Shown here: piece after piece, positions 20,035 to 41,805 of the stretch
Layout of the letters: each line of letters begins with the position of its first letter
Numbering within the stretch: position 1 is the stretch's first letter
Assembly (NCBI GenBank): GCA_007988785.1
Contig: BJUU01000022.1
Span: 1-41,805, forward strand
Direction of reading: 5' to 3'
Source: Agrococcus baldri
GTDB lineage: Bacteria > Actinomycetota > Actinomycetes > Actinomycetales > Microbacteriaceae
Length of the DNA stretch: 41,805 nt
Position numbers and translations under genes: made by a program
The notes under the pieces: generated by a model
The model's input: the letters and a program-made list of their open reading frames with translations, nothing else
The model's database searches: none
Told to the model about the DNA's origin: nothing

Positions 20035-20035
20035 G

Positions 20036-22029: not shown

Positions 22030-22044
22030 GGCTGGCTCCTTGCG

Positions 22045-22503: not shown

Positions 22504-22509
22504 ACGCCC

Positions 22510-22515
22510 AGCATA
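22510..22515 (-). promoter_or_regulatory. Leaderless -10 box of the nfeD-SPFH-glpQ operon
   Basis: TATGCT-GGGCGT-GTG: consensus TANNNT exactly 6 nt before the start at 22503. Confidence 0.6.
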
Positions 22516-22547
22516 TTGAGCGGATGCTGTGGCGCGACCAGGCGCGC

Positions 22548-24755: not shown

Positions 24756-24761
24756 GGCGGG

Positions 24762-24767
24762 ATCGTG
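24762..24767 (-). promoter_or_regulatory. Putative leaderless -10 box of the FMO-SDR gene
   Basis: CACGAT-CCCGCC-ATG, same 6-nt spacing as the stronger examples, with C instead of T at position 1. Confidence 0.35.
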
Positions 24768-24795
24768 CCACGGGCGCGGTGCCCGGGCGACCGCA

Positions 24796-24810
24796 TGTGT
24801 CTGACGCACA
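24796..24810. promoter_or_regulatory. Short dyad in the FMO-SDR / SDR intergenic region
   Basis: TGTG-N7-CACA centred between the divergent genes, next to a TAGTGT -10-like box (24812-24817) for the rightward SDR. It is a possible operator, but no regulator gene is adjacent. Confidence 0.25.
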
Positions 24811-24839
24811 GTAGTGTCGTCGGGAACGAAGGAGCACAC

Positions 24840-27649: not shown

Positions 27650-27669
27650 GCCGCGCCCGCGGCTCAGGT
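27644..27669. terminator. Perfect palindrome covering both stop codons of S9 peptidase and APP1 genes
   Basis: Two perfect 12-bp arms (27644-27655 and 27658-27669) around a 2-nt centre. The TGA of the S9 gene (27647-27649) and that of the APP1 gene (27664-27666, reverse) lie in opposite arms. Probable bidirectional terminator, without T tract. Confidence 0.6.
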
Positions 27670-28719: not shown

Positions 28720-29633
28720 GTGAGCGATCCTCGCATCCGTATCCTGAGCGCCGCCCGGTCGATGCGCGCGTCGAGGCGCGCGACGCGCCCGGCGGCGTCG
28801 CCGTCGACCTGCACCGGCAGCAGCCCGTCCACGCCGCCGAGCGTCACGCGCTCGACGGTGCGGTGGCGCAGGATGCCCTCGGCGCGCGCGATGCCGGCGC
28901 CGGCGGCGGCGATCCGGCCCCAGTGGGCGAGGTGCCGGGGGCTGACGGCGGCGACGTGCAGCACGCCGTCGTCGAGGCGCGTGCCGGGCAGCACCTGGAA
29001 ACCGGCGGGGATGCGCGCGGCGTTGTGCACGAGCACGCTCCACGCGCGCGTCGACTCGATGTCGCCGCCGTCGAAGCGGCCGCGCACGGCGAAGCTCGGG
29101 CTGCCGAGCCTGCGCGCGCCGAGCGCCACGTAGGCGGCCCAGCCGAGCCGCCGCTTGTGCCGCAGCGACACGGCCTCGATGGCGAGCGCGTCGTTGCCGA
29201 CGCCCGTCACCACCAGGAACACGCGCTCGGGCTCGCGCGCCCCGTCGCCGCGGGTGAGCGCCACCCTGCCCAGGTCGACCGACGCCTCGCGGCCGCCGAC
29301 CGCGGCGCGCGCGGCGGCCGCGGCGTCGCGCAGCGGCAGCTCGAGGTTGCGGGCGAAGAGGTTGGCGGTGCCGGCCGGCATGATGCCCAGCGGCGTGCCC
29401 GAGCTGGCGAGCACGGCGACGATCTCGCGCACGGTGCCGTCGCCGCCGACGGCGACCACCGCATCCGCCCCCTGCTCGAGCGCGGCGCGCGCCTGCGGGC
29501 CGCCGGGCTCGGCGATGGTCGTGGGCAGCACGCGCGCGTCGGCGCCGGTCGCGGCGGCCTCGCGCAGCAGCGCGTCGACTGCACGGTCGAAGCCGCGCGC
29601 GGCAGGGTTGCCGATGACGGCGAGCGAGGGCAC
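28716..29633 (-). CDS. Diacylglycerol/lipid kinase family protein
   Basis: A 305-residue DagK-fold kinase. VIGNPAARG at the start, VAVGGDGTVREIVAVLASSGTPLGIMPAGTANLFARNL for nucleotide binding, and a C-terminal beta domain ending VQVDGDAAG are diagnostic. The family phosphorylates diacylglycerol or related lipids. GTG start at 29633 with TACGCT exactly 6 nt upstream. Heads the two-gene operon with APP1. It may alternatively be a polyprenol or sphingosine kinase-like member. Confidence 0.88.
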   Translation of the reverse strand: MPSLAVIGNPAARGFDRAVDALLREAAATGADARVLPTTIAEPGGPQARAALEQGADAVVAVGGDGTVREIVAVLASSGTPLGIMPAGTANLFARNLELPLRDAAAAARAAVGGREASVDLGRVALTRGDGAREPERVFLVVTGVGNDALAIEAVSLRHKRRLGWAAYVALGARRLGSPSFAVRGRFDGGDIESTRAWSVLVHNAARIPAGFQVLPGTRLDDGVLHVAAVSPRHLAHWGRIAAAGAGIARAEGILRHRTVERVTLGGVDGLLPVQVDGDAAGRVARLDARIDRAALRIRMRGSLT

Positions 29634-29639
29634 GCGGCC

Positions 29640-29645
29640 AGCGTA
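29640..29645 (-). promoter_or_regulatory. Leaderless -10 box of the lipid kinase-APP1 operon
   Basis: TACGCT-GGCCGC-GTG: consensus TANNNT exactly 6 nt before the start at 29633. Confidence 0.6.
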
Positions 29646-29652
29646 GCCGCGG

Positions 29653-30762
29653 CTACGGCATCGCCGGGCGCAGCGACAGGAAGGCCGCGAGGCGGGCGAT
29701 CTCGTCGTCGGCCGCGCGCAGCAGGCGGGCGTCGGGCTCGACGTCCCAGTGGATGCGGTGCACGCGCAGCGCTCCGGCGTCGCGGTCGGACTTCGCGTCG
29801 ACCTTGCCGACGAGGCGGTCGCCGTCGAGGATCGGCAGCGCGAAGGCGCCCCAGCGGCGCTTGGCGGCGGGCGTGTACTGCTCGAGCGCGTACTCGAAGC
29901 CCCACAGCTGCACCATGCGCTTGCGGTCGGCGAGCAGCCGGTCGAGCGGGGAGAGCAGCGCGACGCGGCCGGCGAAGCCCTCGGCGGTCGCGCCCGGGTC
30001 GAGCCGCCACTCGCCGCGCACGCCCTCGACGCGCACGGGCTCGCCGACATCGCCGAGATGGGTGGCGCGGCTGATGCCGCACGAGCGCAGCCAGCGCTCG
30101 CGCCAGGTGCGCCAGGCGTCGTCGAGCCGCGCGGGCTCGACCGGCGGCAGCACGCGCGCGGCGAGATCCCAGACGCGGGCGGTGCCGTGCCGCTCGGCGA
30201 CCACGACCTCGCCGCGGATCTGCAGCAGCTCGAGCATCATGGCCACGTTGCGGTCGGTGTTCCAGCCGCTCGAGCGGAAGGGCACGTCGGCGGCGTCGTC
30301 GATGTCGGCCTGGGGGAGCGGGCCCTCCTCGCGCAGCTGCATGAGCACGCGGGCGTGGAAGCCGCCGTTGGCGTCGAGCCACTCGCTCGCGGAGCTGTGG
30401 ATCGAGGAGGGGTCGCGGCCGATCGCCACGAGCCACGGCAGGTCGGTCATCGCCCGCAGCCCGATCGCCCACGCCTCCATCGGATGCCGGTGCGGGCCGA
30501 GGTGCTCGAAGAGGGTCTGCTCGACCTCGACGGCGCGGCGCACGTCGTCGTGCACGAGGCTCGGGATGCGCGTGTGCGCGATCTGCTCGGCCGACGGCGC
30601 GACGATGTCGGTCGGGTTGAGGGGCAGCAGCGTGAGCTGCTCGACCACCTCCGGCAGGTCGCCCGCCTCGCGCTCGAGGGAGTCGGCCTCGAGCCACTGC
30701 GCGCGCACCGCGATGCGCCGAGCCTCCTCGAGCGTGATGGTGCGGATCTCGCTGCTCGCCAT
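29653..30762 (-). CDS. YcaQ/AlkZ-like winged-helix DNA-binding protein (HTH_42)
   Basis: A 369-residue protein of the HTH_42 family (EARRIAVRAQWLE start; FRSSGWNTDRNVAMMLELLQIRGEVVVAERHG winged-helix part; LLSPLDRLLADRKRMVQLWGFEYALEQYTPAAKR hallmark). E. coli YcaQ and Streptomyces AlkZ of this superfamily are DNA glycosylases that unhook interstrand crosslinks. I did not verify their catalytic residues here, so repair activity is inference. Start ATG at 30762 with TAGGGT exactly 6 nt upstream. Confidence 0.82.
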   Translation of the reverse strand: MASSEIRTITLEEARRIAVRAQWLEADSLEREAGDLPEVVEQLTLLPLNPTDIVAPSAEQIAHTRIPSLVHDDVRRAVEVEQTLFEHLGPHRHPMEAWAIGLRAMTDLPWLVAIGRDPSSIHSSASEWLDANGGFHARVLMQLREEGPLPQADIDDAADVPFRSSGWNTDRNVAMMLELLQIRGEVVVAERHGTARVWDLAARVLPPVEPARLDDAWRTWRERWLRSCGISRATHLGDVGEPVRVEGVRGEWRLDPGATAEGFAGRVALLSPLDRLLADRKRMVQLWGFEYALEQYTPAAKRRWGAFALPILDGDRLVGKVDAKSDRDAGALRVHRIHWDVEPDARLLRAADDEIARLAAFLSLRPAMP

Positions 30763-30768
30763 GCCGCG

Positions 30769-30774
30769 ACCCTA
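30769..30774 (-). promoter_or_regulatory. Leaderless -10 box of the YcaQ-like gene
   Basis: TAGGGT-CGCGGC-ATG: consensus TANNNT exactly 6 nt before the start at 30762. Confidence 0.6.
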
Positions 30775-30805
30775 CCCACCGCCCCCGACACCGCCGCCAC
30801 TGCCC

Positions 30806-30845
30806 CCTCCCGCGCATGAGTGGCGCCTCCCGCGCATGAGTGGCG
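30806..30845. repeat. Two perfect tandem copies of a 20-bp unit
   Basis: The unit CCTCCCGCGCATGAGTGGCG occurs at 30806-30825 and 30826-30845, followed by a decayed start of a third copy (ACTCCCGGCG). It sits in the 141-bp gap between the divergent YcaQ-like and GNAT genes. Function unknown. Confidence 0.9.
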
Positions 30846-30891
30846 ACTCCCGGCGGGACAGGTGACGCTGCACCCGCCCAGCCGCGTCGGA

Positions 30892-30897
30892 GAGGAT
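30892..30897 (+). promoter_or_regulatory. Putative leaderless -10 box of the GNAT gene
   Basis: GAGGAT-GGGCGC-ATG, 6-nt spacing to the start at 30904; G replaces T at position 1. Confidence 0.4.
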
Positions 30898-30903
30898 GGG
30901 CGC

Positions 30904-31503
30904 ATGGAGGACGAGCTCCGCATCGTGGCCGCGAACACGGCCGACCCCGCCGACCTCGACGCGATCTTCGGCGATCGCGGCAACGGATGCCGCTGCCGCT
31001 GCCAGCGCTACCGGCTCGAGCGCGGCGAGACCTTCGCCGGCACGCCGGTCGAGGAGCGCGCCATGCGCCTGGTCGAGCAGACCGGCGCGGGCGAGCCCGA
31101 CGCATCCACCACCACGGGCCTCGTCGCCTACCTGGGCGAGACGCCGATCGGCTGGGTGGCGGTCGCGCCTCGCAGCGAGCATCAGGGGCTCGTGCGCGAG
31201 TTCACGGTGCCGTGGAAGGGCCGGGATGAGGACAGGGCGGATGCGTCGGTGTGGGCGATCACGTGCCTGTTCGTCCGTGCGGGGCACCGCAGGAGCGGCG
31301 TCAGCCGCGCGCTCGCCGCAGCAGCCGTCGGATTCGCGAGAGCGCAGGGTGCGCGAGCGGTCGAGGCGTACCCGATCACGACGACCGCGGTGATCGACGA
31401 AGAGCTGCACGTCGGCACCGTGCCGACGTTCGAAGCGGCGGGCCTCACCGAGGTCTCGCACCCGACGAAGCGACGGAAGGTGCTGCGCGCCGACTTCGCG
31501 TGA
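30904..31503 (+). CDS. GNAT-family N-acetyltransferase
   Basis: A 199-residue GNAT protein. The acetyl-CoA region is around ITCLFVRAGHRRSGVSRALAAAAVGFARAQGARAVEAYPI. The N-terminus has a CRCRCQRY cysteine cluster seen in some actinobacterial GNATs. Substrate unknown. Likely leaderless start at 30904. It lies upstream of, and on the same strand as, the PLP enzyme, but a separate -10-like box precedes that gene. Confidence 0.82.
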   Translation: MEDELRIVAANTADPADLDAIFGDRGNGCRCRCQRYRLERGETFAGTPVEERAMRLVEQTGAGEPDASTTTGLVAYLGETPIGWVAVAPRSEHQGLVREFTVPWKGRDEDRADASVWAITCLFVRAGHRRSGVSRALAAAAVGFARAQGARAVEAYPITTTAVIDEELHVGTVPTFEAAGLTEVSHPTKRRKVLRADFA

Positions 31504-31527
31504 CCGCCGGCAGCATCCGGGCGGTGC

Positions 31528-31533
31528 CAGAAT
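31528..31533 (+). promoter_or_regulatory. Putative leaderless -10 box of the PLP enzyme
   Basis: CAGAAT-CAACAC-ATG, 6-nt spacing to the start at 31540; C replaces T at position 1. Confidence 0.4.
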
Positions 31534-31539
31534 CAACAC

Positions 31540-32598
31540 ATGTCAGACACGCCCCGCCGCCCCGAGACCATCGCCGTCACCGCGGGGCGCCCACCGCACG
31601 AGCCCGGAGCTCCGCTCAACCAGCCGGTGGCGTTCACGAGCACGTTCGTGCAGGGCGGCGACCCGGTCTACGCGCGCTACGGCAATCCCACCTGGAGCGC
31701 CTTCGAGGAGGCGCTCGGCGCGCTCGAGGGCGGCGACTGCATCGCCTTCTCGAGCGGCATGGCCGCGGTGAGCGCCGTCATGGCGCAGGTGCCGCACGGG
31801 GGAGCGGTGGTCGTGGCGCGACACACCTACCAGCACGCGCTGCTGCTGCTCGACGAGGGCGCCGCGAGCGGTCGCTTCGAGGTGCGCCGCGTCGACATCA
31901 CCGACGGCGATGCGGTCGAGGCCGCGCTGCCCGGCGCGGCGCTGCTGTGGCTCGAGTCGCCCACGAACCCGGCGCTCGAGGTCGCCGACATCCCGCGTCT
32001 GACGGCAGCTGCGCGGGCAGCGGGGGTGCAGAGCGTCGTCGACAACACCTTCGCGACGCCGCTGCTGCAGCGCCCGCTCGAGCTGGGCGCCGACATCGTG
32101 GTGCACTCGGCGACCAAGCTGATCGCCGGCCACAGCGACGTCGTGCTGGGCGCGGTCGTGACGGGTGCGCCCGAGGCGGCCGAGCGCATCCGCCACCACC
32201 GTGGTCTGCACGGCGCGATCCCCGGCCCGATGGAGGTGTTCCTGGCGCTGCGCGGGCTGCGCACGCTGTCGGTGCGGCTCGAGCGCGCCGCGTCGAACGC
32301 GCGCGAGCTCGCACGCAGGCTCGCGGATGCGCCGGGTGTCGTCGAGGTGCGCGACCCCGGGCTGAGCACGGTACTGGCACTCGTGCTCGCCGATGCCGCT
32401 GCCGCCGACCGGGTGGTCGAGCGCGTGCGGCTGTGGATCCCGGCGACGAGCCTCGGGGGAGTGGAGTCGACGCTCGAGCGCCGCAGGCGGTGGCCGACGG
32501 AGGCGCCCACGATCCCGGAGGGGCTGCTCAGACTGTCGGTCGGCATCGAGCACGTCGACGACCTGGCCGAGGATCTGCTGCAGGCGCTGGGGGAGTAG
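31540..32598 (+). CDS. Cystathionine gamma-synthase/lyase-family PLP enzyme
   Basis: A 352-residue Cys/Met-metabolism PLP enzyme (fold type I). YARYGNPTWSAFEEALGALEGGD and FSSGMAAVSAV bind the cofactor phosphate; ESPTNPALEVADI and VDNTFATPLLQRPLELGAD are family signatures; the Schiff-base lysine is in HSATKLIAGHSDV. It may be a gamma-synthase, gamma-lyase or O-succinylhomoserine sulfhydrylase; sequence alone does not decide. Slightly short compared with the usual ~380. Confidence 0.88.
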   Translation: MSDTPRRPETIAVTAGRPPHEPGAPLNQPVAFTSTFVQGGDPVYARYGNPTWSAFEEALGALEGGDCIAFSSGMAAVSAVMAQVPHGGAVVVARHTYQHALLLLDEGAASGRFEVRRVDITDGDAVEAALPGAALLWLESPTNPALEVADIPRLTAAARAAGVQSVVDNTFATPLLQRPLELGADIVVHSATKLIAGHSDVVLGAVVTGAPEAAERIRHHRGLHGAIPGPMEVFLALRGLRTLSVRLERAASNARELARRLADAPGVVEVRDPGLSTVLALVLADAAAADRVVERVRLWIPATSLGGVESTLERRRRWPTEAPTIPEGLLRLSVGIEHVDDLAEDLLQALGE

Positions 32599-32661
32599 CA
32601 CTGGAGGCACGCGCGACACAGCGCTGGCACCGCGCCGCTCGGTGTGCCATCGTCGGGCGGC

Positions 32662-33219
32662 ATGAGCACAGGACAGCGAACACTGGCGATCACGCAGAAC
32701 ATCACGCTCGACGGCTCCATCGAGATGCTCGGCGACTGGTTCGACCCGATGGATCAGACGGGTGACCTGCTGGAGGTCATCTCGGAGCACACCGCGCGAG
32801 AGAGTGCGCTGCTGCTCGGCAGGCGGACCTTCGAGGACTTCCGCGGCTTCTGGCCCGAGCAGACCGACGACGAGACCGGCATCTCGGCACAGCTGAACGC
32901 GGTGCCGAAGTACGTGGTGTCCTCGACGATGACCGACCCCGGGTGGCAGCACACCACGGTGCTCTCCGGCGATTGGCTGGGTCGGGTGCGCGAGTTGAAG
33001 GACGAGCCGGGCGACGACATCATCGTGACCGGCAGCATCACGCTCTGCCACGCGCTCATCGAGGCGCGCGTGGTCGATGAGCTGCGGCTGTTCGTCTACC
33101 CCGTCGTGCAGGGGAGCGGCCGACGGCTCTTTCCCGAGGAATTCCAGGCCGAGCGGCTGCGGCTGACGGAGAGCCGCGGCTTCACCAACGGCGTCTCGCT
33201 GCTGCAGTACGCCTTCTGA
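32662..33219 (+). CDS. Dihydrofolate reductase-like (RibD C-terminal) family protein
   Basis: A 185-residue DHFR-like fold protein: ITQNITLDGSIEML at the start, LLLGRRTFEDFRGFWP, YVVSSTM and TGSITLCHALIEARVVDELRLFVYPVVQGSGRRLF. This family reduces pyrimidine-like or unknown substrates with NADPH; true folate reduction is unlikely to be its role. The ATG at 32662 starts just ahead of the first strand; a GTG at 32644 is also in frame. A CATCGT box (32648-32653) is 8 nt upstream. Confidence 0.83.
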   Translation: MSTGQRTLAITQNITLDGSIEMLGDWFDPMDQTGDLLEVISEHTARESALLLGRRTFEDFRGFWPEQTDDETGISAQLNAVPKYVVSSTMTDPGWQHTTVLSGDWLGRVRELKDEPGDDIIVTGSITLCHALIEARVVDELRLFVYPVVQGSGRRLFPEEFQAERLRLTESRGFTNGVSLLQYAF

Positions 33220-33292
33220 ATCGGTCGGCCGCCGCGAGCAGGCGCCCAGGTCGAATCCCTGCCGACCGACATGGTGGGCCGTCCGTCATCAC

Positions 33293-33298
33293 TAGGCT
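33293..33298 (+). promoter_or_regulatory. Leaderless -10 box of the 60-residue membrane peptide
   Basis: TAGGCT-CGAAGC-ATG: consensus TANNNT exactly 6 nt before the start at 33305. Confidence 0.6.
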
Positions 33299-33304
33299 CG
33301 AAGC

Positions 33305-33487
33305 ATGAGTCGCAATGCCTGGGCGGTCATCTGCGCGATCCTCGCCGTCATCATCGCGTGGATCGTCGTCGACCTGGTCTTCAGCCTGCTGTGGTTCATC
33401 GGCAAGCTCGTCATCGTGGCCCTCGTCGCCGTCGTGGTGTTCTTCCTGCTGCGCTCGCTCATCGGCAGGCGGTCGCCGGAGCGCTGA
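33305..33487 (+). CDS. Small membrane protein (60 residues)
   Basis: Encodes two closely spaced hydrophobic helices (AVICAILAVIIAWIVVDLVFSLLWFI and LVIVALVAVVVFFLLRSLI) with a basic end (GRRSPER). Not recognised as a named family. The strong leaderless -10 box and membrane-like composition support it being real. It is convergent with the VOC gene, 40 bp away. Confidence 0.7.
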   Translation: MSRNAWAVICAILAVIIAWIVVDLVFSLLWFIGKLVIVALVAVVVFFLLRSLIGRRSPER

Positions 33488-33527
33488 TGCCCGATAACGA
33501 CGTTTTCGTGATGCGAGCTGACGGCGC

Positions 33528-33917
33528 TCAGCCGGTTCGCTGCACGAGCTGCACCGGGTGTCCGTCGGGGTCGGCGATCCACGCGATGCGCAGATCGGTG
33601 AGCCATGGCTCCGGCGCAGCGAGCGTCGGGATGCCGCGAGCCTCGGTCTCAGCCAGCGCAGCGTCGACGTCGTCGCACCAGAGGATCACGGCGGCTCGCT
33701 GGCCATGGTCCACGGGCGCCAGGCCGTGGTCGTCACGGGTCGAGGCGATGGAGGCGATGCCGAAGCGCATCCCGTCGAGCTCGAGATCGACATGGATGGG
33801 CGCGCCGAGCGCAGGCGTGCGGAATCGTTCGGCGAAGCCGAACGCGCGATAGAAGGCCGCGGCGCGCTCGACATCGGCGCTGAACAGGATCACCTGCGGA
33901 TCGCCGAACGTCACCAT
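33528..33917 (-). CDS. VOC-superfamily (glyoxalase-like) protein
   Basis: A 129-residue vicinal-oxygen-chelate protein with two beta-alpha-beta-beta-beta modules (VILFSADVERAAAFYRAFGF ... and VILWCDDVDAALAETEARGI ... WIADPDGHPVQLVQ). The family includes glyoxalase I, bleomycin-type binders and dioxygenases; the specific role is unknown. Start ATG at 33917 with TAGCGT exactly 6 nt upstream (33924-33929). A small GCTGA/TCAGC dyad (33517-33532) overlaps its stop. Confidence 0.85.
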   Translation of the reverse strand: MVTFGDPQVILFSADVERAAAFYRAFGFAERFRTPALGAPIHVDLELDGMRFGIASIASTRDDHGLAPVDHGQRAAVILWCDDVDAALAETEARGIPTLAAPEPWLTDLRIAWIADPDGHPVQLVQRTG

Positions 33918-33923
33918 GCCGTC

Positions 33924-33929
33924 ACGCTA
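33924..33929 (-). promoter_or_regulatory. Leaderless -10 box of the VOC gene
   Basis: TAGCGT-GACGGC-ATG: consensus TANNNT exactly 6 nt before the start at 33917. Confidence 0.6.
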
Positions 33930-34445
33930 CGCGGCATGCCGGCGCACAGCACCGGCCCGGCCGGTGGACGATCGATCACGTGCCCGTCTGCGCGAACCAC
34001 CACAGCGCCGATAATGCACATTATGTCGGATAAAGTTGATACCGAAGCTTCGGCCCCACTCTCCCTGGGACCCAAGTCGGCAAACAGATCCCATCAAAAC
34101 CCGCTCCTGACCGGGCGTTTTCCGCGTAGGGTCGGACACCGGCCTACGGGCGCCACTCTGGGTTGATGCAAATAATGAACCAACCGGAAGGGTTCCCGAC
34201 GGGCACTTTCGCACTAGTTGTTGCAAAGTGTGACCGAATGGTGCAGATCCTGGTTGCACGATCAATGTCCAGCGCTCGTACCTGTCCTGCGCCACGTTGA
34301 CATCCGGGGTGCCCCAGCCAAGGTGGGCACGCAGCCCACAACCCACTTGGTTCCGGCTCCGCTGGCTACACCGCAGTGATTCGTCACGGAGCTCGCGAGT
34401 GGGTTGCTAGTGTCTCCAGACCCGTTCACCGCGTGTCGGGATCGC
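33930..34445. other. Non-coding junction at the left edge of the metal cassette
   Basis: About 515 bp with no supportable gene, AT-richer than the core region to its left. It holds a dyad ATAATG-CA-CATTAT (34011-34024) and repeat copy A (34035-34179). The rest (34180-34445) has reading frames on the minus strand that I do not recognise and cannot distinguish from chance or decayed sequence. Confidence 0.6.
34035..34179 (+). repeat. Direct repeat copy A (left boundary of the metal cassette)
   Basis: 145-bp non-coding sequence matching copy B at 38129-38272 in the same orientation. Hand alignment gives about 19 mismatches and one gap, roughly 86% identity. Both copies begin GTTGATACCGAAGC and end GGTTGATGCAAATAATGAA. 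I see no transposase; it may be a solo element end or an integration remnant. Confidence 0.85.
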
Positions 34446-35132
34446 CTACTCCGCCAGCGCCGCCTGGATCGCCGTCTCGATGTCGCTTTCCTGCGACAGC
34501 TCGAGCCGCTCCCCGTCGACGAAGATCGTCGGTGTTCGGTCGACGCCGAGTGCGACGCCGGCCTGGAAGTCTTGCTCGACGCGGGCCAGCGTGGCGGGGT
34601 CCGCGACGCCAGCGTCGTATACGGCCATATCGAGGCCGAGTTCCTGCGCGTAGCCGCGGAAACGGTCGGCCTCGGACTCTCGCCCCTCTCCCCACTCCGA
34701 TTGCGTCTCGAACATACGCTGATACATCGCCTCGAACGCTCCCTGCTGAGCGGCCGTCTCAACGGCGACGGCTGCGTTGCCGGAGTTAAAATGACCCGGC
34801 AGCGGGAAGTACCGAACGGCGAACGTCACCTCGCCGTCGTACTCCCCACGGAGCTCTTCCATAACGGGGTACACGGCGCCGCACACTTCACACTCGAAGT
34901 CGAGGAATTCAACCACCACCGGGGCGTCTGGACCTGCGTCGTCCAAAATGAGCGTGGATTCATCCACAAGCGGCGGTAGGGCAGTCGGTGACACGGCAGA
35001 ATCCGTCGATTCGTCACTCGTGAGCGACGGATCGCTGCTCTCCCAAGGCCGCACGGTGAGCAGCAGTGCAATAACAAGCACCGCCACAGCCGCGGCGAGG
35101 ATCAAGACTGTCACGACGGGACGGGTACGCAC
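34446..35132 (-). CDS. Membrane-anchored DsbA/thioredoxin-like disulfide oxidoreductase
   Basis: A 228-residue protein: short basic N-terminus, one membrane helix (VVTVLILAAAVAVLVIALLLTV), acidic Ser/Thr-rich linker, then a DsbA-like domain outside the cell. The active site is CEVC in FLDFECEVCGAVYP, and the cis-Pro loop is in RTPTIFVDG. Family members form or isomerise disulfides in exported proteins. The GTG at 35132 is chosen because TAGCGT ends 7 nt upstream (leaderless spacing); GTG at 35141 is the alternative. It is divergent from cmtR with about 100 bp between starts, which suggests joint metal control, an inference. Confidence 0.85.
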   Translation of the reverse strand: MRTRPVVTVLILAAAVAVLVIALLLTVRPWESSDPSLTSDESTDSAVSPTALPPLVDESTLILDDAGPDAPVVVEFLDFECEVCGAVYPVMEELRGEYDGEVTFAVRYFPLPGHFNSGNAAVAVETAAQQGAFEAMYQRMFETQSEWGEGRESEADRFRGYAQELGLDMAVYDAGVADPATLARVEQDFQAGVALGVDRTPTIFVDGERLELSQESDIETAIQAALAE

Positions 35133-35139
35133 GCTCCTC

Positions 35140-35145
35140 ACGCTA
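35140..35145 (-). promoter_or_regulatory. Putative leaderless -10 box of the DsbA-like gene
   Basis: TAGCGT-GAGGAGC-GTG: TANNNT with 7-nt spacing to the start at 35132. It is about 75 bp from the cmtR operator. Confidence 0.45.
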
Positions 35146-35219
35146 CCCGTCGACTCGTGCTTGCCTGACGCGCGCCCCCCCTCCACACAACCACGACATC
35201 GACGCGACAGCGCACGCTG

Positions 35220-35242
35220 TATAGTCAGTGTGTGCTGACTAT
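35220..35242. promoter_or_regulatory. cmtR promoter and overlapping operator palindrome
   Basis: TATAGT (35220-35225) is a consensus -10 exactly 6 nt before the cmtR GTG at 35232. A perfect 8-bp dyad, ATAGTCAG-N6-CTGACTAT (35221-35242), covers the -10 box, the transcription start, the start codon and the next codons. ArsR/SmtB repressors such as CmtR bind imperfect dyads of this size, so this is the likely autoregulatory site. Confidence 0.75.
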
Positions 35243-35585
35243 TGCGAATCGACTGGACGTGATGCATCGGCTGGGCAGGGCGATGGCGGACTCGACGCGC
35301 TCACGCATCTTGCTGAGCTTGCTGCAGGGCCCGAACTATCCCGCTGTCCTTGCGAGCGAACTCGAGCTGACACGCTCGAACGTATCGAACCATCTCGCCT
35401 GCCTGCGTGATTGCGGCATCGCCGTGGCCGAGCCTGAGGGCCGCCAGACGCGGTACGAGATCGCCGACCCGCACCTCGCGCGGGCGCTCACTGCGCTGGT
35501 CGAGGTGACGTTGGCTGTCGACGAGCAAGCGCCGTGCCTCGATCCGGAGTGCCCAGTCCCGGGCTGCTGCGAGTCGACCCGATGA
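35232..35585 (+). CDS. cmtR: ArsR-family Cd(II)/Pb(II)-sensing repressor CmtR
   Basis: A 117-residue winged-helix metal sensor. The HTH is LASELELTRSNVSNHLACLRDCG; the match to M. tuberculosis CmtR includes the metal ligands at the very same numbers: Cys57 and Cys61 in the recognition helix and Cys102 in the tail. Three extra cysteines (107, 112, 113) follow in a tail CPVPGCC, which is unusual. CmtR leaves DNA when Cd or Pb binds. Leaderless GTG. It overlaps the transporter gene by 4 nt (ATGA). Confidence 0.92.
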   Translation: MLTIANRLDVMHRLGRAMADSTRSRILLSLLQGPNYPAVLASELELTRSNVSNHLACLRDCGIAVAEPEGRQTRYEIADPHLARALTALVEVTLAVDEQAPCLDPECPVPGCCESTR

Positions 35586-36235
35586 GCGCGGAGGCACTGA
35601 CCGAGGCACGACGGGGCATCCTGCATCGCCGAGTGCGGTTCATTGTCGGCTTCACGATCACCTACAACGTCATCGAGGCGATCGTCGCGATCTGGGCGGG
35701 CTCGATGGCCTCCTCGGCCGCGCTGATCGGGTTCGGGCTCGATTCGATCGTCGAGGTGCTCTCCGCGGCCGCAGTCGCGTGGCAGTTCACGCGCAAGGAT
35801 CCGGAACGGTGGGAGAAGGCCACGGTCCGCGCGATCGGCATTGCGTTCTTCGCTCTCGCCGCGTACGTCATCATCGACGCGGTGCTCACGCTGACCGGGG
35901 TGGAACAGGTCGATCACAGCCCGTTCGGCATCGGCATCGCCACCCTCAGCCTGCTCGTCATGCCGGCTCTGGCCTGGTTCGAGTTCCGCACCGGTCGCGA
36001 GCTCGGTTCACGCAGCGTGCAGGCGGACGCCAAGCAATTGCTTCTGTGCATCTACCTGTCGGGCACGGTGCTCATCGGCCTGTTGCTCAACCTGCTCTTC
36101 GGCTGGATGTGGGCAGATTCCGTGGCTGCACTCATCGTCGCCGGGCTTGCCATCCGCGAAGGCATTGAGGCATGGCGCGGCGACGTCGAATCGCCCTTCG
36201 AAGTCCTGGACGAGCTCGAGGAGAAGGACCTCTAG
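35582..36235 (+). CDS. Cation diffusion facilitator-like heavy-metal transporter
   Basis: A 217-residue membrane protein with about six helices. The CDF-like signatures are FGLDSIVEVLSAAAVAW in helix 2 and ADSVAALIVAGLAIREGIEAW in helix 6. It is shorter than classical CDF proteins because the cytoplasmic C-terminal metal domain is absent, as in a subgroup of actinobacterial transporters next to CmtR. Likely exports Cd/Zn by proton exchange; specificity is inference from the CmtR-CadD context. Confidence 0.85.
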   Translation: MSAEALTEARRGILHRRVRFIVGFTITYNVIEAIVAIWAGSMASSAALIGFGLDSIVEVLSAAAVAWQFTRKDPERWEKATVRAIGIAFFALAAYVIIDAVLTLTGVEQVDHSPFGIGIATLSLLVMPALAWFEFRTGRELGSRSVQADAKQLLLCIYLSGTVLIGLLLNLLFGWMWADSVAALIVAGLAIREGIEAWRGDVESPFEVLDELEEKDL

Positions 36236-36844
36236 ATGCTCGCGACCATTGCCTCCGCGATCGGCATGTTCGCGGCAACCAACATCGACGACATCGTCAT
36301 CCTCACCGTCCTCTTCCTCGCATCGTCTCGCGGTGGGCCGCGGCCCTGGCAGATCGTCCTCGGCCAGTACCTGGGATTCGCGACGCTCGTTGCGATCAGC
36401 GCTGTCGCGGCACTCGGGCTCACGATCATCCCGGACGAGTGGGTCGGCTTCCTCGGCCTCATCCCCCTGCTGATCGGTGTCATCGGACTCATCCGGGGAC
36501 TGCGCGACCGCGACGATGCAGATCCAGACGAGTCGGCGATGAAGAACCTCGGCCTGCTTGGCATCGCCGGAATCACCATCGCGAACGGGGCGGACAACAT
36601 CAGCCTCTACACGCCGGTGTTCCGAACCATCTCGCCCGCGGACACCGCGATCACCATCGTCGTGTTCCTCGCTCTGGTGAGCGTCTGGTGCCTCTTCGGC
36701 AAGCTCATCGGCACGCACAAGGCCGTCACCGAGACGCTCGAGCGGATCGAGCACTGGCTCGTCCCCGCCGTGTTCATCGGCCTCGGCCTGTTCATCCTGA
36801 TCGAATCCGGCGTCATCCCCCGCCTATTCGAGGCACTCGCCTGA
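36236..36844 (+). CDS. cadD: Cadmium resistance transporter CadD
   Basis: A 202-residue membrane protein of the CadD family, first known from staphylococcal plasmids. ATNIDDIVILTVLFL in helix 1 and the internal repeat IANGADNISLYTPVF carry the conserved Asp residues; about five to six helices in total. Starts right after the previous stop codon and its own stop overlaps the lspA ATG, so cmtR, the CDF gene, cadD and lspA are one transcription unit. Confidence 0.92.
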   Translation: MLATIASAIGMFAATNIDDIVILTVLFLASSRGGPRPWQIVLGQYLGFATLVAISAVAALGLTIIPDEWVGFLGLIPLLIGVIGLIRGLRDRDDADPDESAMKNLGLLGIAGITIANGADNISLYTPVFRTISPADTAITIVVFLALVSVWCLFGKLIGTHKAVTETLERIEHWLVPAVFIGLGLFILIESGVIPRLFEALA

Positions 36845-37404
36845 TGTCGACGACTGACAACAGCTCACCAAGTCCCGCGGCAGCACAGGCAGTCGACGCG
36901 GGGGCCGCCATCTCGCCACACACGAGACCTCGACTGTGGAAAGTGACCCTGCTCGGCCACCTCGCCGCGCTCGCCGCCGTCGCGATCGATCAACTCAGCA
37001 AGGTCTGGGCAGAGGCGAACCTCGCTGTCGGCGAGCGTCACCCGCTGCTGGGCGACATGCTCGCGCTGCAGCTCACCTACAATCCGGGCGCAGCATTCTC
37101 GCTCGGCGCCAGCGCAACGCCGCTCATCACCGTCCTCGCCGCTGCGGGCACGATGTTCGCGGCTTGGCTCGCCTGGAGAACCACATCGCTGCCGTGGGCG
37201 CTGAGCCTCGGCCTCATCCTCGGAGGCGCCCTCGGAAACGTCATCGACCGCCTGGCACGACACCCCGGACCCGGCCGTGGCCACGTCGTGGACTTCATCG
37301 CCTACGCCGACTGGTTCATCGGAAATCTCGCAGACGTGTTCGTATTCGGCGGTCTGACGCTCTGCATCGCCTTCGCCTTCATGGGTAAGTCCATGCGGCC
37401 CTAA
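36844..37404 (+). CDS. lspA: Accessory lipoprotein signal peptidase
   Basis: A 186-residue aspartic signal peptidase II that cleaves before the lipobox Cys. Catalytic Asp135 (GNVIDR) and Asp164 (NLADVFVF) are present; four membrane helices after a ~30-residue polar N-terminus. The housekeeping lspA usually lies elsewhere in the chromosome, so this is probably a second, cassette-borne copy. LspA-like proteins also accompany lead and cadmium operons in other bacteria (for example the pbr system). Coupled to cadD. Confidence 0.9.
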   Translation: MSTTDNSSPSPAAAQAVDAGAAISPHTRPRLWKVTLLGHLAALAAVAIDQLSKVWAEANLAVGERHPLLGDMLALQLTYNPGAAFSLGASATPLITVLAAAGTMFAAWLAWRTTSLPWALSLGLILGGALGNVIDRLARHPGPGRGHVVDFIAYADWFIGNLADVFVFGGLTLCIAFAFMGKSMRP

Positions 37405-37536
37405 CCCTCAGCACGCCGCTGTGGAGCGCTCGACCGCCGAATCCAGTCATGAGAAGACTGCGGCGACCCCGCCGCTTCCCCAACCCCGCCCGATCGGCTG
37501 CGGTGAACACATCGATCACCGAACAGCGCGCGCTCG

Positions 37537-37565
37537 TTGACATCAGTCCAGCGAGTCGACACGAT
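37537..37565 (+). promoter_or_regulatory. Candidate promoter of the thioredoxin-fold gene
   Basis: TTGACA (37537-37542), 17-nt spacer, CACGAT (37560-37565). The -35 is a perfect consensus. It gives a ~30-nt leader before the start at 37602, suggesting expression separate from the cad unit. Confidence 0.5.
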
Positions 37566-37601
37566 CGGTGCTACTCAGCGAGCACGACTAATGGAGACCG
37601 A

Positions 37602-37913
37602 ATGATGAACTTCGAAGTCCTCACCATCGAGGGCTGCCCCCATGGCGCGGAGGCAACGCGGCGCCTAGAAGCAGCGCTCGCCGCCGACGGCAGGGCCGCC
37701 GCGGTGCTACAGCGAAGCATCACGACTGCAGCCGACGCCTCGTCAACCGCGTTCGCAGGCTCCCCCACGATCACGTTCGCAGGCCGGGATCTCTTCCCGA
37801 GCGACGGCCGGACGAGCGCTCTCGCATGCCGCGTCTACGCAACTCCAGCTGGTCTCGCCAGCGCCCCGACAGTCGAGCAACTGCGGGTAGCGATCGGAGA
37901 ACTCCCTGGCTAA
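37602..37913 (+). CDS. Small thioredoxin-fold protein ('DF family'-like)
   Basis: A 103-residue protein: FEVLTIEGCPHGAEATRRLEAAL at the start, then GSPTITFAGRDLFPSDG and CRVYATPAGLASAPTVEQLRVAI. This pattern resembles small actinobacterial thioredoxin-like proteins found near mercury and other metal genes; usual members have a Cys pair in the VxxCPN region, while here only one Cys is in that motif. ATG at 37602 with GGAG 6 nt upstream. Assignment to the family is from memory of its pattern, not search. Confidence 0.7.
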   Translation: MMNFEVLTIEGCPHGAEATRRLEAALAADGRAAAVLQRSITTAADASSTAFAGSPTITFAGRDLFPSDGRTSALACRVYATPAGLASAPTVEQLRVAIGELPG

Positions 37914-38052
37914 TGCACGCGTCCGATGCTCCTGCTGCGGCAAGGAGTATCCACGTCGGAACGTCCACGCACTCGAGGTGTCAGGGGCATTCATCTGCCG
38001 CCGCTGCGGCCTCTGGGTCGCGCTCCGTCCTCGCGGCGATCGGATCGACTAG
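37906..38052 (+). other. Zinc-ribbon reading frame without a recognisable start
   Basis: A short open frame ending at TAG 38050-38052 reads RCSCCGKEYPRRNVHAL, then ICRRCGLWVAL. Two CxxC knuckles spaced like a zinc ribbon are unlikely by chance. The only upstream codons in frame before a stop at 37888 offer no ATG, GTG or TTG; a CTG at 37906 overlaps the previous gene's end. It may be a decayed gene, a frameshifted extension of the previous gene, or use a rare start. Confidence 0.45.
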
Positions 38053-38472
38053 CAGCGCGGCATTACGCGCGCATCGCGGCCGACGCAGCAGCTCACGACC
38101 TATGTTGATATCCCCGATATCCAGTCGAGTTGATACCGAAGCTCCGGCCCCACACCCCCTGAGGCCCAAGTTGGCAACCAAATCCCATCAAAACCTGCTC
38201 CTGACCGGGCATTTCCGCGCAGGAGCGGACGCCGGCCGACGGACGCCGCTCCTGGTTGATGCAAATAATGAAACATCTGAAACCGACCTCGACTGTGTGA
38301 ATTGTGGCCTGGAGGCCGATCATTGACGTCACCGAATAGCCAGACTGCGTGGCGGTTCACCGTGAAGTGAAGCATGAACGTTGCTATCGTTTGCTCGATC
38401 GTGTCATGACCGCGGCGATGACCGTGGCCGACGGCGGACGATGCAGCGGCCAAGCTGCGAGACGGGAAAACG
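38053..38472. other. Non-coding region at the right edge of the metal cassette
   Basis: 420 bp without a supportable gene. It holds GATATC-CCC-GATATC (38107-38121), repeat copy B, and, before the M23 gene, a possible promoter with TATCGT (about 95 bp upstream of the start) and weak -35 GTGAAG. Nothing else is recognised. Confidence 0.5.
38129..38272 (+). repeat. Direct repeat copy B (right boundary of the metal cassette)
   Basis: 144-bp sequence in direct orientation to copy A, about 86% identical by hand alignment. Homology stops sharply at both ends in the same places as in copy A. Confidence 0.85.
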
Positions 38473-39843
38473 ATGGCCCAGCCCGACCCGGCCGGTCGAG
38501 CCCGCTCGCGCTGGCGTAGCCTCCAACTCGGCGCCGCGGCCACGGTCGCCATCGGCGCCTTGATCGCGACTCTGATCGCCCCAGGCGCGCCACGGGCAGA
38601 GGCCGTCGACGAGTACGGCTTCCCCACCTGGGCAGAGGTCGAGGCCGCTCGCGGCAACGTGAGCGCCAAGAACCAGCAGATCAGCGAGATCCGCGCGCTC
38701 ATCTCACAGCTCGAGAGCGACGCCGACAACGCGCAGTCGCTCGCCGATCAGCGCGCGGCGGAGGCAATCGAGGTGCAGCGCGTCTATGACGAGGCCGTCG
38801 CGGCGGCCGAGCGCCTCCAGCAGCAGGCCGACGAGGCATCGGCGAGCGCCGAGCAGTCGCAGTTGGCGGCCGGGCAGCTCGCCGCACAGCTCGCACGCTC
38901 TGGCGGCACCGGCGACATGAGTGCCGAGCTGTTCGCCAACCCCGGCTCAGCCGATGACTGGCTGCATCAGCTCGACATGATGGACCGCGTCGCAGGTACC
39001 GCCGACTCCCTTTACGAGCGGGCGCAGCAGGACGCGAACGCGGCACAGGCGCTACAAGATCAAGCAGCGGTCGCCCGCGACGCGCTGCACGAGATGAAAG
39101 TAGCGGCCGACGAGGCCTACGCGACCGCGCAGGCCGCCGCGATCGCGGCACAAGAGGCGGTCGTTGCGCAGCAGGAGCACCGCGCCGAGCTCGACGCACA
39201 GCTCGCGGTGCTGATCGAGAACCGGGCTGCGACCGAGGAGGACTACCGGGCTGGCCAGGCGCATCGTGCATGGCTGGCCGAGCAGGAGCGGCTTCGGCGC
39301 GAGCGCGAGGCGCGGGAGCGCGAGGAGGCTCGCCAGCGTGCGCTCGAGGAGCAGCGCAGGCTGGCCGAGGCCGCTCGCGAATCCGGAGGCAGCGGTGGCG
39401 GTGGTGCCGTGCCTGTCGCGCCGACTCCGAGCAGCGGCTGGCAGACGCCGCTCTATGGTCGCTTCACCTCCGCATACGGCATGCGTAACGATCCGCTCGG
39501 CCGGCTCGGCCGCAAGTTGCATGCCGGCGTCGATATCGCGGCCGGCTGCGGCGCTCCGATCTACGCGGCTGCGGACGGCGTCGTCACGCTGCGTTCACGT
39601 GACACCTATGGTGCGAACATGCTGTACATCGATCATGGCGGCGGCGTCAGGACCGAGTATTACCACATGATGCAGCCCGCCGGTGTGGCGCCCGGCCAGC
39701 GCGTACAAGCCGGTCAGGTCGTCGCATATGAGGGCAGGACCGGCTACGTGACCGGCTGCCACCTGCACTTCCAACTCCGCGTCGGAGGCACGCTTGTGAA
39801 TCCCGAATCGTTCCTGAACGCACGAGGCGTGTACCTGCGCTGA
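38473..39843 (+). CDS. M23-family murein endopeptidase with coiled coil
   Basis: A 456-residue exported protein. N-terminal hydrophobic segment (about residues 20-38, ending APRAEAV), then a long Ala/Gln/Glu-rich coiled coil (about 55-310) like EnvC/RipC-type proteins, a Gly/Ser-rich linker, and a LytM/M23 domain (about 325-450). Zinc ligands are His350 and Asp354 in HAGVDIA and His432 in HLHFQL, with His430 catalytic. It should cut peptidoglycan cross-bridges. The coiled coil often acts in regulation by FtsEX; no ftsEX is in the window. Convergent with a second M23 gene. Confidence 0.88.
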   Translation: MAQPDPAGRARSRWRSLQLGAAATVAIGALIATLIAPGAPRAEAVDEYGFPTWAEVEAARGNVSAKNQQISEIRALISQLESDADNAQSLADQRAAEAIEVQRVYDEAVAAAERLQQQADEASASAEQSQLAAGQLAAQLARSGGTGDMSAELFANPGSADDWLHQLDMMDRVAGTADSLYERAQQDANAAQALQDQAAVARDALHEMKVAADEAYATAQAAAIAAQEAVVAQQEHRAELDAQLAVLIENRAATEEDYRAGQAHRAWLAEQERLRREREAREREEARQRALEEQRRLAEAARESGGSGGGGAVPVAPTPSSGWQTPLYGRFTSAYGMRNDPLGRLGRKLHAGVDIAAGCGAPIYAAADGVVTLRSRDTYGANMLYIDHGGGVRTEYYHMMQPAGVAPGQRVQAGQVVAYEGRTGYVTGCHLHFQLRVGGTLVNPESFLNARGVYLR

Positions 39844-39907
39844 CGGGCATCGTGGTGCCAGTCGGGCCGCGGTCGCCCAGGACACTGCCGTCGCCCTAGG
39901 GTTCGTA

Positions 39908-41086
39908 CTACTCGAGGTTCATTTGGCGGGTCTGCAGCCACAGCATCGGGTCGAAGGACACGTAATTGCTGTTCTTCAGTTCGAGGTGCAGATGCGGACC
40001 TGTCGAACGGCCGGAGCTGCCCACCTGACCAATGACCGTCGTGATGTCCACGACCTGGCCTACCTCGACCTGGATCGAGCCGGGCAGCATGTGCGCGTAC
40101 CAGGACTGCACGAACTGCCCATTGATGTTGTGGTCGACGAAGACGACGTACCCGCCACCGCCGGGGTTGTTCCCCTGCCATACCTCGGAGACGACACCGT
40201 TCGCGATCGGCCGGATCTGCGTGCCGAGGCCGGGGGCGATATCCGTCCCGCCATGCGACCCACCCGGGCGGTATCCGAACGGACTCGTGATCCGCAACTG
40301 CGCCAAGCTGGGGAAGGGGCTCTGCACGTAGTCGGTGTTCAGCGCTTCCCAGGCACGGGGGAACGCGGGATCGCCCCCGTATGACGAACCTGCCACTTCT
40401 GAGTCCGCGACTGCCTGGTAGTTGGCGAACTCGGCATCCGTCATGCTCGCTGCGGCAAGCGGGTCGGTGACGGTGATCTCGTCGCGTGCGAAGAACGTGT
40501 CGTTGTCTGCGGCGACTTGGTCGAGCTCCTGTGAGCTCGGCTCGATCGAGGCCACCTCCGGGGCGAGGGTGCTCGGCGCCTGCATTGCCTGCGCGGGTAG
40601 CGAGGTGACGGCAACGAACGACCCGATGAACACCAGCGCGCTGCCTGCAGTGATCTTCCGCGCGAGTCCGCGGACGCGTCGCTCAGCACGCGCCGGAGGG
40701 GCGATCGTCATTGATTGCCGAATGGTGCGCGGCCTGAGCGGTCTCGGCGCACCGCGCGTCGCGAATGTCGAAGGCGCGTTGTCGACGCCCAGCGCCGGGT
40801 TCGCAATCGTGATGCTGCTTGCCGTGCCGGTCACGGCCTTCGATACCGTCAGCTCCTGGGCGATCTGCAAGGCGTCCTCGCGCATCGCCCGGCGGCTCGA
40901 GTACAGCGGTGGGGCGCCGTGAAGGACCGTCACTCGCGCAGATGCGCGAGCTTCAACGCGAGTACGTGCGATCGCTGCGGCGGCCCGTTCCTGTTCGCGA
41001 AGGACGCGCCGAGTTGCCGGCTGCGCTGTGACGCCCGGCGGACGTGGCTCGCTCTCCTCCCATGCAGGAGATGTGGGCTGCGTCAC
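39908..41086 (-). CDS. M23-family metallopeptidase, single membrane anchor
   Basis: A 392-residue protein: a cytoplasmic basic N-terminal part of ~150 residues (TRRVLREQERAAAAIARTR...), one membrane helix (ITAGSALVFIGSFVAVTSLPAQA), an acidic linker, and a C-terminal M23 domain. Zinc ligands are in SHGGTDIAPG and HLHLEL. Such a long cytoplasmic part is common in Microbacteriaceae M23 proteins. The GTG at 41086 follows GAGGA by ~11 nt; a longer frame from 41155 is possible. An MtrA-like box lies 100 bp upstream. Confidence 0.85.
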   Translation of the reverse strand: MTQPTSPAWEESEPRPPGVTAQPATRRVLREQERAAAAIARTRVEARASARVTVLHGAPPLYSSRRAMREDALQIAQELTVSKAVTGTASSITIANPALGVDNAPSTFATRGAPRPLRPRTIRQSMTIAPPARAERRVRGLARKITAGSALVFIGSFVAVTSLPAQAMQAPSTLAPEVASIEPSSQELDQVAADNDTFFARDEITVTDPLAAASMTDAEFANYQAVADSEVAGSSYGGDPAFPRAWEALNTDYVQSPFPSLAQLRITSPFGYRPGGSHGGTDIAPGLGTQIRPIANGVVSEVWQGNNPGGGGYVVFVDHNINGQFVQSWYAHMLPGSIQVEVGQVVDITTVIGQVGSSGRSTGPHLHLELKNSNYVSFDPMLWLQTRQMNLE

Positions 41087-41392
41087 GCTAGATGATTCCT
41101 CAGAGTTGAACAGGCGTCCGCGAGGGCATCGGCCTTGCCATGCAACGGCTCGCAACGGATCGCGCCCAGCGCGAACTCACCGAATATAACGGATTGGTAA
41201 CGGCACGGTCAACCTCGCCGCGCCGCCGCCCGTCTTGTGGGCGGACTCCAGCCAGCCACCGGGTGGTGAACCTCACTGCTGCCGCTGGCCTCGAACCGTT
41301 GCGAACCGGACCGCAAACCGAGGGGGTGACAATCACAGTCGCAGCGGGTTCGATGGGGTACAGACCAGTTCGGGCGATCGAAGGAGAGAATC
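41087..41392. promoter_or_regulatory. Shared upstream region of the M23 and copper-binding genes
   Basis: 306 bp between divergent genes. It has two CAACGG copies 10 bp apart (41143-41158), the MtrA/GlnR-like box (41186-41201), and AGGAG 6-7 nt before the copper-protein ATG. A GGGGTAC half-site near 41356 slightly resembles copper-repressor sites but has no partner arm. Confidence 0.5.
41186..41201. promoter_or_regulatory. MtrA/GlnR-like direct repeat upstream of the M23 peptidase
   Basis: ATAAC-N6-GTAAC, two 5-bp boxes with an 11-bp period, extended as TAACGG-N5-TAACGG. MtrA and GlnR response regulators bind such tandem boxes in actinobacteria, and MtrA controls wall hydrolase genes. The match is by eye. 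Confidence 0.5.
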
Positions 41393-41803
41393 ATGAGCCA
41401 CCACGTGGAGTCCATGCTCGACACTTACCCCAAGGATCTCGGGACAATCGACAAGCAGGCGCTTGCGGCCTGCATCGAAGCGTGCTTTGAGTGTGCGCAG
41501 ACGTGCACTGCGTGCGCCGATGCCTGTCTGTCGGAGGATATGGTCGCCGAGCTCACCAAGTGCATCCGCACCAACCTCGACTGCGCCGACATCTGCGAGA
41601 CGACCGGCCGCATCCTCTCGCGCCACACCGGCTACGACGCGAACATCACTCGTGCCGTCCTGGAGGCTTGCCAGACGGCATGCAAGGCGTGCGCGGACGA
41701 ATGTGAGCAGCACGCGCAGATGCACGAGCACTGCCGGGTGTGCGCGGAGGCGTGTCGGCGTTGCGAGCGCGCTTGCGCCGACCTGCTTGCCGCGCTCGGC
41801 TAA
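41393..41803 (+). CDS. Four-helix-bundle copper-binding protein (DUF326)
   Basis: A 136-residue protein with 18 cysteines arranged as repeated CxxxC and CxxC along predicted helices (ACIEACFECAQTC..., EACQTACKACADEC, HCRVCAEACRRC). This matches the DUF326/Csp copper-storage bundle, which holds many Cu(I) ions. No signal peptide, so cytosolic (Csp3-like). AGGAG upstream of the ATG. Complete; the stop lies 2 bp before the window end. Neighbouring copper genes, if any, are outside. Confidence 0.9.
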   Translation: MSHHVESMLDTYPKDLGTIDKQALAACIEACFECAQTCTACADACLSEDMVAELTKCIRTNLDCADICETTGRILSRHTGYDANITRAVLEACQTACKACADECEQHAQMHEHCRVCAEACRRCERACADLLAALG

Positions 41804-41805
41804 TT

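Follow-up and report, generated by a model that had tools for sequence, protein, structure and literature searches.

The DNA analysed here is a 41,805-nt stretch of the Agrococcus baldri genome (contig BJUU01000022.1), referred to as the window, and our subject is a segment of cadmium- and lead-related (Cd/Pb) genes lying next to dif, the chromosome dimer resolution site. The dif site occupies positions 34004-34031 on the + strand, which also carries the other features unless stated otherwise, and directly precedes the first of two direct repeats. The segment, named cassette 1 or the Cd/Pb cassette, runs for 4094 bp from the edge of dif to a palindromic right end (34033-38126), with junctions placed by comparison with other arrays. 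Its left arm (34033-34182) is repeat copy 1, delimited by the repeat search and by comparisons of arms, and contains the arm motif CTGACCGGGCGTTTT at 34107-34121, 74 nt from the junction, with a score of 14.2 bits in a matrix scan. The genes inside encode a DsbA-like thiol oxidoreductase on the - strand (34446-35141; PF13462 and PF01323; 86% DNA match to a dif-adjacent stretch of genome G005), the Cd/Pb-sensing repressor cmtR (35232-35585; NF047906, 173.7 bits against a cut-off of 150), a CDF-type metal transporter (35582-36235; PF01545), the cadmium transporter cadD (36236-36844; PF03596, and TIGR00779 at 150.5 bits, below the cut-off of 181.65) and an lspA-like signal peptidase II (36844-37404; PF01252). 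A small thioredoxin-like or DF-family open reading frame (ORF) follows at 37602-37913; it has no Pfam match and one NCBIfam match (NF049942, a DF family, at 58.9 bits, under the cut-off of 70). These gene families suggest that the cargo functions in the export and sensing of cadmium and lead. The right end, AGCTCACGACCTATGTTGATATCCCCGATATCCAGTC, occupies 38090-38126 and is directly followed by the left arm of cassette 2 (repeat copy 2, 38127-38275), in which an arm motif of 17.1 bits lies at 38201-38215.

Allowing up to three mismatches, GCGCCGATAATGCACATTATGTC has a single match in each of the 24 Agrococcus genomes, and the match in the window is the sole dif of this genome. The last 22 bases of GCGCCGATAATGCACATTATGTC are identical to the Frankia alni dif sequence as quoted in PMC3025954. 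As the single conserved Xer site of each chromosome, 34004-34031 is, judged by sequence, dif.

The right end is the second fixed point of the locus. The palindromic site GTTGATATCCCCGATATCCAGTC lies directly left of repeat 2, and the core of the right end occurs once in the window and in none of 100 shuffles. With at most three mismatches, the core is found at 25 sites in 9 of the 24 Agrococcus genomes. All 23 right-end sites on dif-bearing contigs are located downstream of dif on the same strand, 0.8 to 46 kb away; the remaining two are on contigs without dif (C13 of G009 and C12 of G000). A 41-nt matrix for the extended site, with these same sites as its training set, gave 27 matches above 14 bits on the + strand and 0 on the minus strand in 25 stretches. 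Searched as an exact motif in public genomes, the right end was found in three Agrococcus records (A. baldri, A. lahaulensis and Agrococcus sp. KRD186), one of which has three matches. In the array of G014 (locus L010, about 9000-10440), an insertion sequence (IS)-like transposase gene adjoins a broken right-end copy, TACGTTGATATCCGGTCAAG, as seen by eye.

Comparison between genomes gives the geometry of these arrays. The cassettes share the right end, start with a left arm and lie head to tail downstream of dif in one direction, and the left end of a cassette follows either dif or the right end of another cassette. For example, GAAAGAGGGATGAAGTACTCACG follows dif in G009, and a near-identical string follows an internal site in G013. 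An empty site is present in G010, where dif is followed by CGTTGGTTGCGG (CGTTGGTTGCGGTAGCGCTG), the same string that follows a right end on C13 of G009. The junctions lie outside the 28 bp, and on this ground we rejected an insertion within the central region of dif, the mode of Xer elements. The distance from dif to a conserved 154-residue ORF, found in 14 of 22 genomes, ranges from 1.0 kb (G017) to 23.6 kb (G005), and on the other side of dif a conserved ORF lies within 1.5 kb in 12 of 22 genomes. Judged by these comparisons, dif is followed by a one-directional array of exchangeable cassettes. We consider it likely that the Cd/Pb segment is a non-autonomous cassette in an integron-like array that is anchored at dif and built by an integrase.

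The two repeats look different in this light. They span 34034-34182 and 38128-38275, are 86% identical over 149 bp with a start-to-start spacing of 4094, and match each other at E 1.8e-43 in a search of their own genome, where they are the only two matches at E <= 0.001. The initial annotation had described them as direct repeats of about 145 bp, about 86% alike, bracketing an AT-richer gene set, and this description agrees with our data: profile matches confirm the DsbA-like, cmtR, CDF, cadD and lspA genes, with weak support for the thioredoxin-like ORF, and the G+C content of the interior is 65.0% (34033-38126) against 73.4% at 20000-34000. The minimum among 60 windows of 4.1 kb starting in the first 30 kb was 71.0%. 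Its further claim that the segment entered or moved as a unit holds in that the block recurs elsewhere, but the repeats are not the brackets of that unit, as each starts a different cassette. We rejected them as brackets because cassettes that lack the cadmium block can also begin with the repeat (G014, G016 and G005; loci L010, L012 and L014), and because the cadmium block in G013 and G016 begins with another left end. That annotation did not mention that dif adjoins the left repeat, that a right-end palindrome precedes the right one, or that two separate cassettes start at the repeats.

The search of related genomes that it proposed gave nine repeat matches in 5 of the 24 Agrococcus genomes. 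Eight lie within dif arrays. The ninth (G016, 1603731-1603874; L011, about 6732-6875) is a left arm without the outer 26 bases and with the arm motif intact; within 7 kb on either side of it we found no dif and no right end (8 mismatches allowed, chance-like matches only). In the family, the repeat was detected in 6 of 398 genomes, two of these being weak partial matches, and no match was found in 72,556 plasmid records.

Cassettes are shared between genomes as units that end at right-end sites. In blastn comparisons between arrays, a 5.54-kb cassette, 99.7% identical, directly follows dif in G009 and occupies 14.3-19.8 kb in G013, and a 2.2-kb cassette, 97-98% identical, is common to G001, G005 and G016. 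The cmtR-CDF-cadD-lspA block is present in G000, G001, G013 and G016 at 88-94% identity. In G001 it adjoins dif, in G013 and G016 it sits elsewhere in the array, and in all three it ends at a right-end site. The right boundaries of shared cassettes deviate from the site ends by no more than 3 bp, except in two cases: when G013 and G016 are aligned, the match in the cadmium block extends 23-24 bp into similar left ends, and the block in the window has an extra 0.65 kb, including the small ORF, before the right end. The G013 block also holds a 1.3-kb insertion.

These boundaries bear on the initial annotation's idea that the cadmium segment is moved or lost through homologous recombination between the two ~145-bp repeats. 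The 86% identity over 149 bp would permit it, and outer arms have been exchanged between cassettes that are otherwise 98% identical. However, boundaries fall on right-end sites even beside left ends of different classes, and strict one-sided orientation at dif would not be expected. We regard this explanation as highly improbable. Homologous deletion between the two repeats is possible, but it is not needed, and the repeats are not supported as the substrate of excision. The mobile unit begins at dif, or at a right end, and extends as far as the following right end.

In many bacteria the terminus region is variable, and the locus could be an ordinary genomic-island hotspot at the terminus in which the motifs are relics of one shuffled ancestral island. 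Compatible with this are the long variable stretches that follow dif in genomes that have no right-end site, and the one orphan left arm far from dif. It is at odds with the 5.54-kb and 2.2-kb segments that are 97-99.7% identical across genomes with right ends at sites, with a recent four-copy multiplication in G225, and with the recurrence of this plan in other genera whose site sequences differ. We find this explanation barely credible.

The candidate builder of the arrays is a tyrosine recombinase. Two of the nine arrays (G014 and G016) begin with an integrase operon of int, a helix-turn-helix (HTH) gene and a XerD-like gene, and in a PF00589 search of the 24 genomes one match lies about 0.7 kb from dif in each of these two. 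The int ORFs start at +263 (G014) and +265 (G016) from dif, and are followed by the small HTH protein and then a protein of 501-516 residues, which in G014 has no Pfam match. Int has the PF00589 catalytic domain (8.4e-16 in G014; in G016, 3e-11 against XerD, 1a0p). The window's own Cd/Pb cassette carries no int operon. The int family was detected in 39 of 396 Microbacteriaceae genomes (E <= 1e-40), in 9 of 396 genomes across the phylum (E <= 1e-50) and on 191 of 72,556 plasmids (E <= 1e-20). The order int, HTH, third gene was found in all 6 plasmid records inspected, in three of which the third gene is named recombinase XerD and in three hypothetical. Compared with Rhodococcus pNit proteins, the HTH and third proteins are 46% and 44% identical, respectively. 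Two int-HTH operons stand in tandem or near-tandem on Rhodococcus plasmids (L183 and L186).

The integrase is associated with dif-like sites beyond Agrococcus. We analysed 40 int loci, 30 from the Microbacteriaceae search and 10 from the phylum search, and defined a dif-like site as one with at most 2 mismatches to CCGATA-n(5-7)-TTATGTC. Of the 24 loci sharing at least 41% identity with the query, 14 have a dif or dif-like site 242-311 bp upstream of int. None of the 16 loci below this line, which was set after the data were seen, has one. Among control windows, two per int locus, 1 of 80 contained a dif-like site. Sister integrases below 41% identity (L137-L150) had no dif-like site upstream in any of 14 loci at 2 mismatches. 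The L175 integrase (38% identity) has a dif-like site upstream on the opposite strand without mismatch to the loose pattern, and a sister group may therefore use dif in the other orientation. Plasmid int loci resemble dif more loosely, with 5 of 6 within 7 mismatches of 19 and 2 of 6 within 3.

Genome G225 contains four copies of one 4.31-kb int element, 99.84-99.86% identical, one after the chromosomal dif and three on a plasmid (a 124,450-base contig). Each copy is directly 3′ of a dif or dif-like site of the form CCGATA-n7-TTATGTCAA in the same orientation; the flanks differ, and the right ends are identical up to CACCACAT. An apparent further cassette left end follows plasmid copies 1 and 2, as seen by eye.

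A motif in the left arm is found both in int elements and in cassettes. In a pattern search of ten int-bearing elements of other genera, a CTGATCAGGACTTTC-type motif was present about 75 nt from the junction in five, a second arm motif at about 165 nt in four and at 144 nt in two, and no arm motif in two. We built an arm matrix from eleven sites of other genera, with which 99.99% of background positions score under 8.9 bits, and ran it on 48 Agrococcus junctions. Scores of at least 10 bits at +71 to +75 were obtained at 13 of the 48, including both repeats of the window. The matches are split between dif flanks in array genomes (5 of 9) and right-end junctions (8 of 26), with 0 of 13 at the dif flanks of genomes without a right-end site. 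Single high scores are also met away from the junctions and on either strand; at a threshold of 11.5 bits, the Agrococcus stretches have 23 matches on + and 16 on -.

Taken as a plan, the array would work as follows. A tyrosine recombinase encoded by the int-HTH-XerD-like operon, which G014 and G016 carry and which elsewhere is found on plasmids, would recognise dif-like sites. At the outer edge of dif, on the XerD side, it would join a circular cassette, right end to left arm; joining there would leave dif intact, and each new cassette would push the older ones away from dif. Cassettes without int, including the Cd/Pb cassette, would be mobilised in trans by virtue of having similar ends and the arm motif. 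If the arms act as attachment arms, this would explain why the window's repeats exist. We infer that the int operon builds the array from its target, ends and arms.

Several observations weigh against this interpretation. No event of recombination has been observed, and recombination itself is deduced from sequence. At the threshold of 10 bits, the arm motif is missing from 18 of 26 right-end junctions and from the dif flanks of G007, G008, G009 and G013; 6 of the 13 matches are homologous arms of class A, with the other 7 from different arm classes, and the class A repeat was already in sight when the motif was first spotted by eye, so that the training was not fully blind. The orphan truncated arm in G016 sits 375 kb from dif. 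Our confidence was lowered slightly, and stays within what we call likely, because the arm motif is present in five of nine, not five of six, dif flanks of arrays and because of this orphan arm. Among the 24 close int loci, 10 have no dif-like site within 600 bp, one of which (L130) has dif farther upstream. A long post-dif region is also found without right-end sites (18.2 kb in G021, 8.7 kb in G019 and 8.6 kb in G002), meaning that other DNA also accumulates there. Finally, the 2.2-kb cassettes (L117 of G001 against L105 of G016 and L054 of G005) differ in the outer ~74 bp only, a difference that plain site-specific insertion does not explain. The switch in the outer arms falls at the arm motif, and recombination at this motif is one possible reason for the exchange.

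The distribution of recombinases must be counted on the same side, as 7 of the 9 array genomes have no PF00589 protein beside dif, and G009 and G013, both with arrays, hold only two PF00589 proteins in all, presumably XerC and XerD. This raises the alternative that XerC/XerD capture the cassettes at dif, in the manner of integrative mobile elements exploiting Xer (IMEX) or pdif modules, with the int operon a mere passenger. Everything is anchored at dif, and the right end has a left half that looks, by eye, like a Xer arm (CGTTGATA versus CGCCGATA). However, each genome has a single dif (at most three mismatches) and cassettes are not located between two dif sites, the junction falls beyond the 28 bp and not in the central region, and int elements of other genera share the target side, and partly the arm motif, with the cassettes. 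We therefore consider capture by Xer unlikely, and insertion by the dedicated integrase remains the interpretation we favour.

Integrons have one primary site and a one-directional array of cassettes with a shared 3′ site and variable genes. The same plan, a one-directional cassette array at a primary site, is found here, and the likeness is meant as a statement about plan. The parts differ. The G014 integrase is not IntI (TIGR02249, 29.2 bits against a cut-off of 265); integrons have int beside a fixed platform, whereas here int is inside the first element and the primary site is dif; and the dif cassettes also carry a left arm. The attC sites of integrons have GTTRRRY/RYYYAAC boxes. Such boxes were not seen in the right end, inspected by eye only, with no attC model run.

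Other systems share single features with these arrays. According to the available passages of PMC6305408, XER modules of Arthrobacter plasmids have a three-gene core (tyrosine recombinase, XRE regulator and second recombinase) with passenger genes. The same order of recombinase, HTH/XRE and second recombinase is present in G014, G016 and all 6 plasmid loci, and the autonomous int element looks like the XER modules of PMC6305408 in its gene plan. The word dif does not appear in that text; in its passages, the elements lie between umuC and umuD, and attachment ends, int-less cassettes or arrays are not mentioned. IMEX carry a mimic of dif and use the host Xer, as described in parts of PMC5357621 and PMC9765430. 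Like the arrays, IMEX and pdif modules use dif or dif-like sites on chromosomes and plasmids, whereas here there is a dedicated integrase family and no second dif in any of the 24 genomes at up to three mismatches, more degenerate Xer sites being possible. The IS1202-family "dif-site hunters" (ISAjo2) insert in one orientation next to dif/pdif; the portions available describe a DDE transposase, insertion 5 bp from the XerC side and 5-bp duplications (PMC10132070), compared with a tyrosine recombinase, the XerD side and cargo arrays here. GInts, in the passages of PMC5385486, similarly have cargo, a short 3′ end and an operon in which several integrase-like genes stand with one for a small protein, but they have four genes (ginABCD) and other targets (e.g. 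ssb), and these passages contain no dif target or int-less arrays. XER modules and IS1202 dif hunters are already described, and no account of dif-anchored cassette arrays in actinobacteria was recognised in our partial coverage of the literature, mostly titles and abstracts, which is no proof of absence.

Arrays of right-end-like sites on the dif strand were also found in G293 (five), G409 (five), G236 (three) and G336 (two), representing three other genera, as G409 and G336 belong to one. The patterns were taken from those same genomes, so the counts indicate repetition and are not the result of a blind search. Matches with 5-6 mismatches were left out as chance (G225 16140; G051 31682 and 5649, minus strand; G409 35615; G236 15992; G336 20902), and one with 6 mismatches (G293 5960) was retained on account of its flank. 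Repeated k-mers in G386, G288, G115, G225 and G051 showed no sign of an array by eye.

These observations may point to a second integron-like capture platform made of unrelated parts, in Agrococcus and at least three other Microbacteriaceae genera. In such a platform, dif would be the primary attachment site, a dif-hunting tyrosine integrase would insert circular cassettes at its edge, and int-less cassettes, with genes of metal resistance and of other functions, would be stacked and exchanged between species; to us the case for this and the case against it are evenly balanced. The host range could be very wide, since almost all bacteria have dif. If true, actinobacteria would own a cassette-capture system comparable to integrons and tied to a near-universal site of circular chromosomes, mobile metal-resistance and defence genes could be found by reading downstream of dif, and it would become testable how an integrase uses dif without disturbing dimer resolution.

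The cargo of the arrays is diverse. Of 89 ORFs listed, 20 were scanned and 18 had a match at E <= 1e-5, among them pyridine nucleotide-disulphide oxidoreductases, ArsB, a P-type ATPase, an SBF transporter, GNAT, ArsR fused or joined to a low-molecular-weight phosphatase-like domain, an APH-like phosphotransferase, ABC proteins and others. A SMODS/AGS_C nucleotidyltransferase gene lies in the dif-proximal segment of G013 (L099:14918-16135); such genes are found in defence of the cyclic-oligonucleotide-based antiphage signalling system (CBASS) type. At E <= 1e-40, 30 of the 72,556 plasmid records carry genes similar to cadD, and the genus names of all 30 are actinobacterial.

Cassette 2 or further array cargo, with no strand assigned, occupies 38473-41805 and reaches the contig end. 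It contains two M23-peptidase-like ORFs, labelled by eye, and a Csp1/DUF326-like ORF, and in G005 and G013 ORFs resembling those of this region are found downstream of dif at different distances from it. Contig C12 (G000) has a right-end site at 15391-15412 with core homologues after the site, and its DNA from 18.5 kb on corresponds to DNA starting 0.1 and 0.6 kb after dif in G019 and G020, respectively. This contig may continue the window's array beyond the contig end. The Cys-rich ORF at 41393-41803 matches DUF326 and, at 33 bits, is Csp1-like below the cut-off of 100; an ORF 60% identical to it is present in the dif region of G013.

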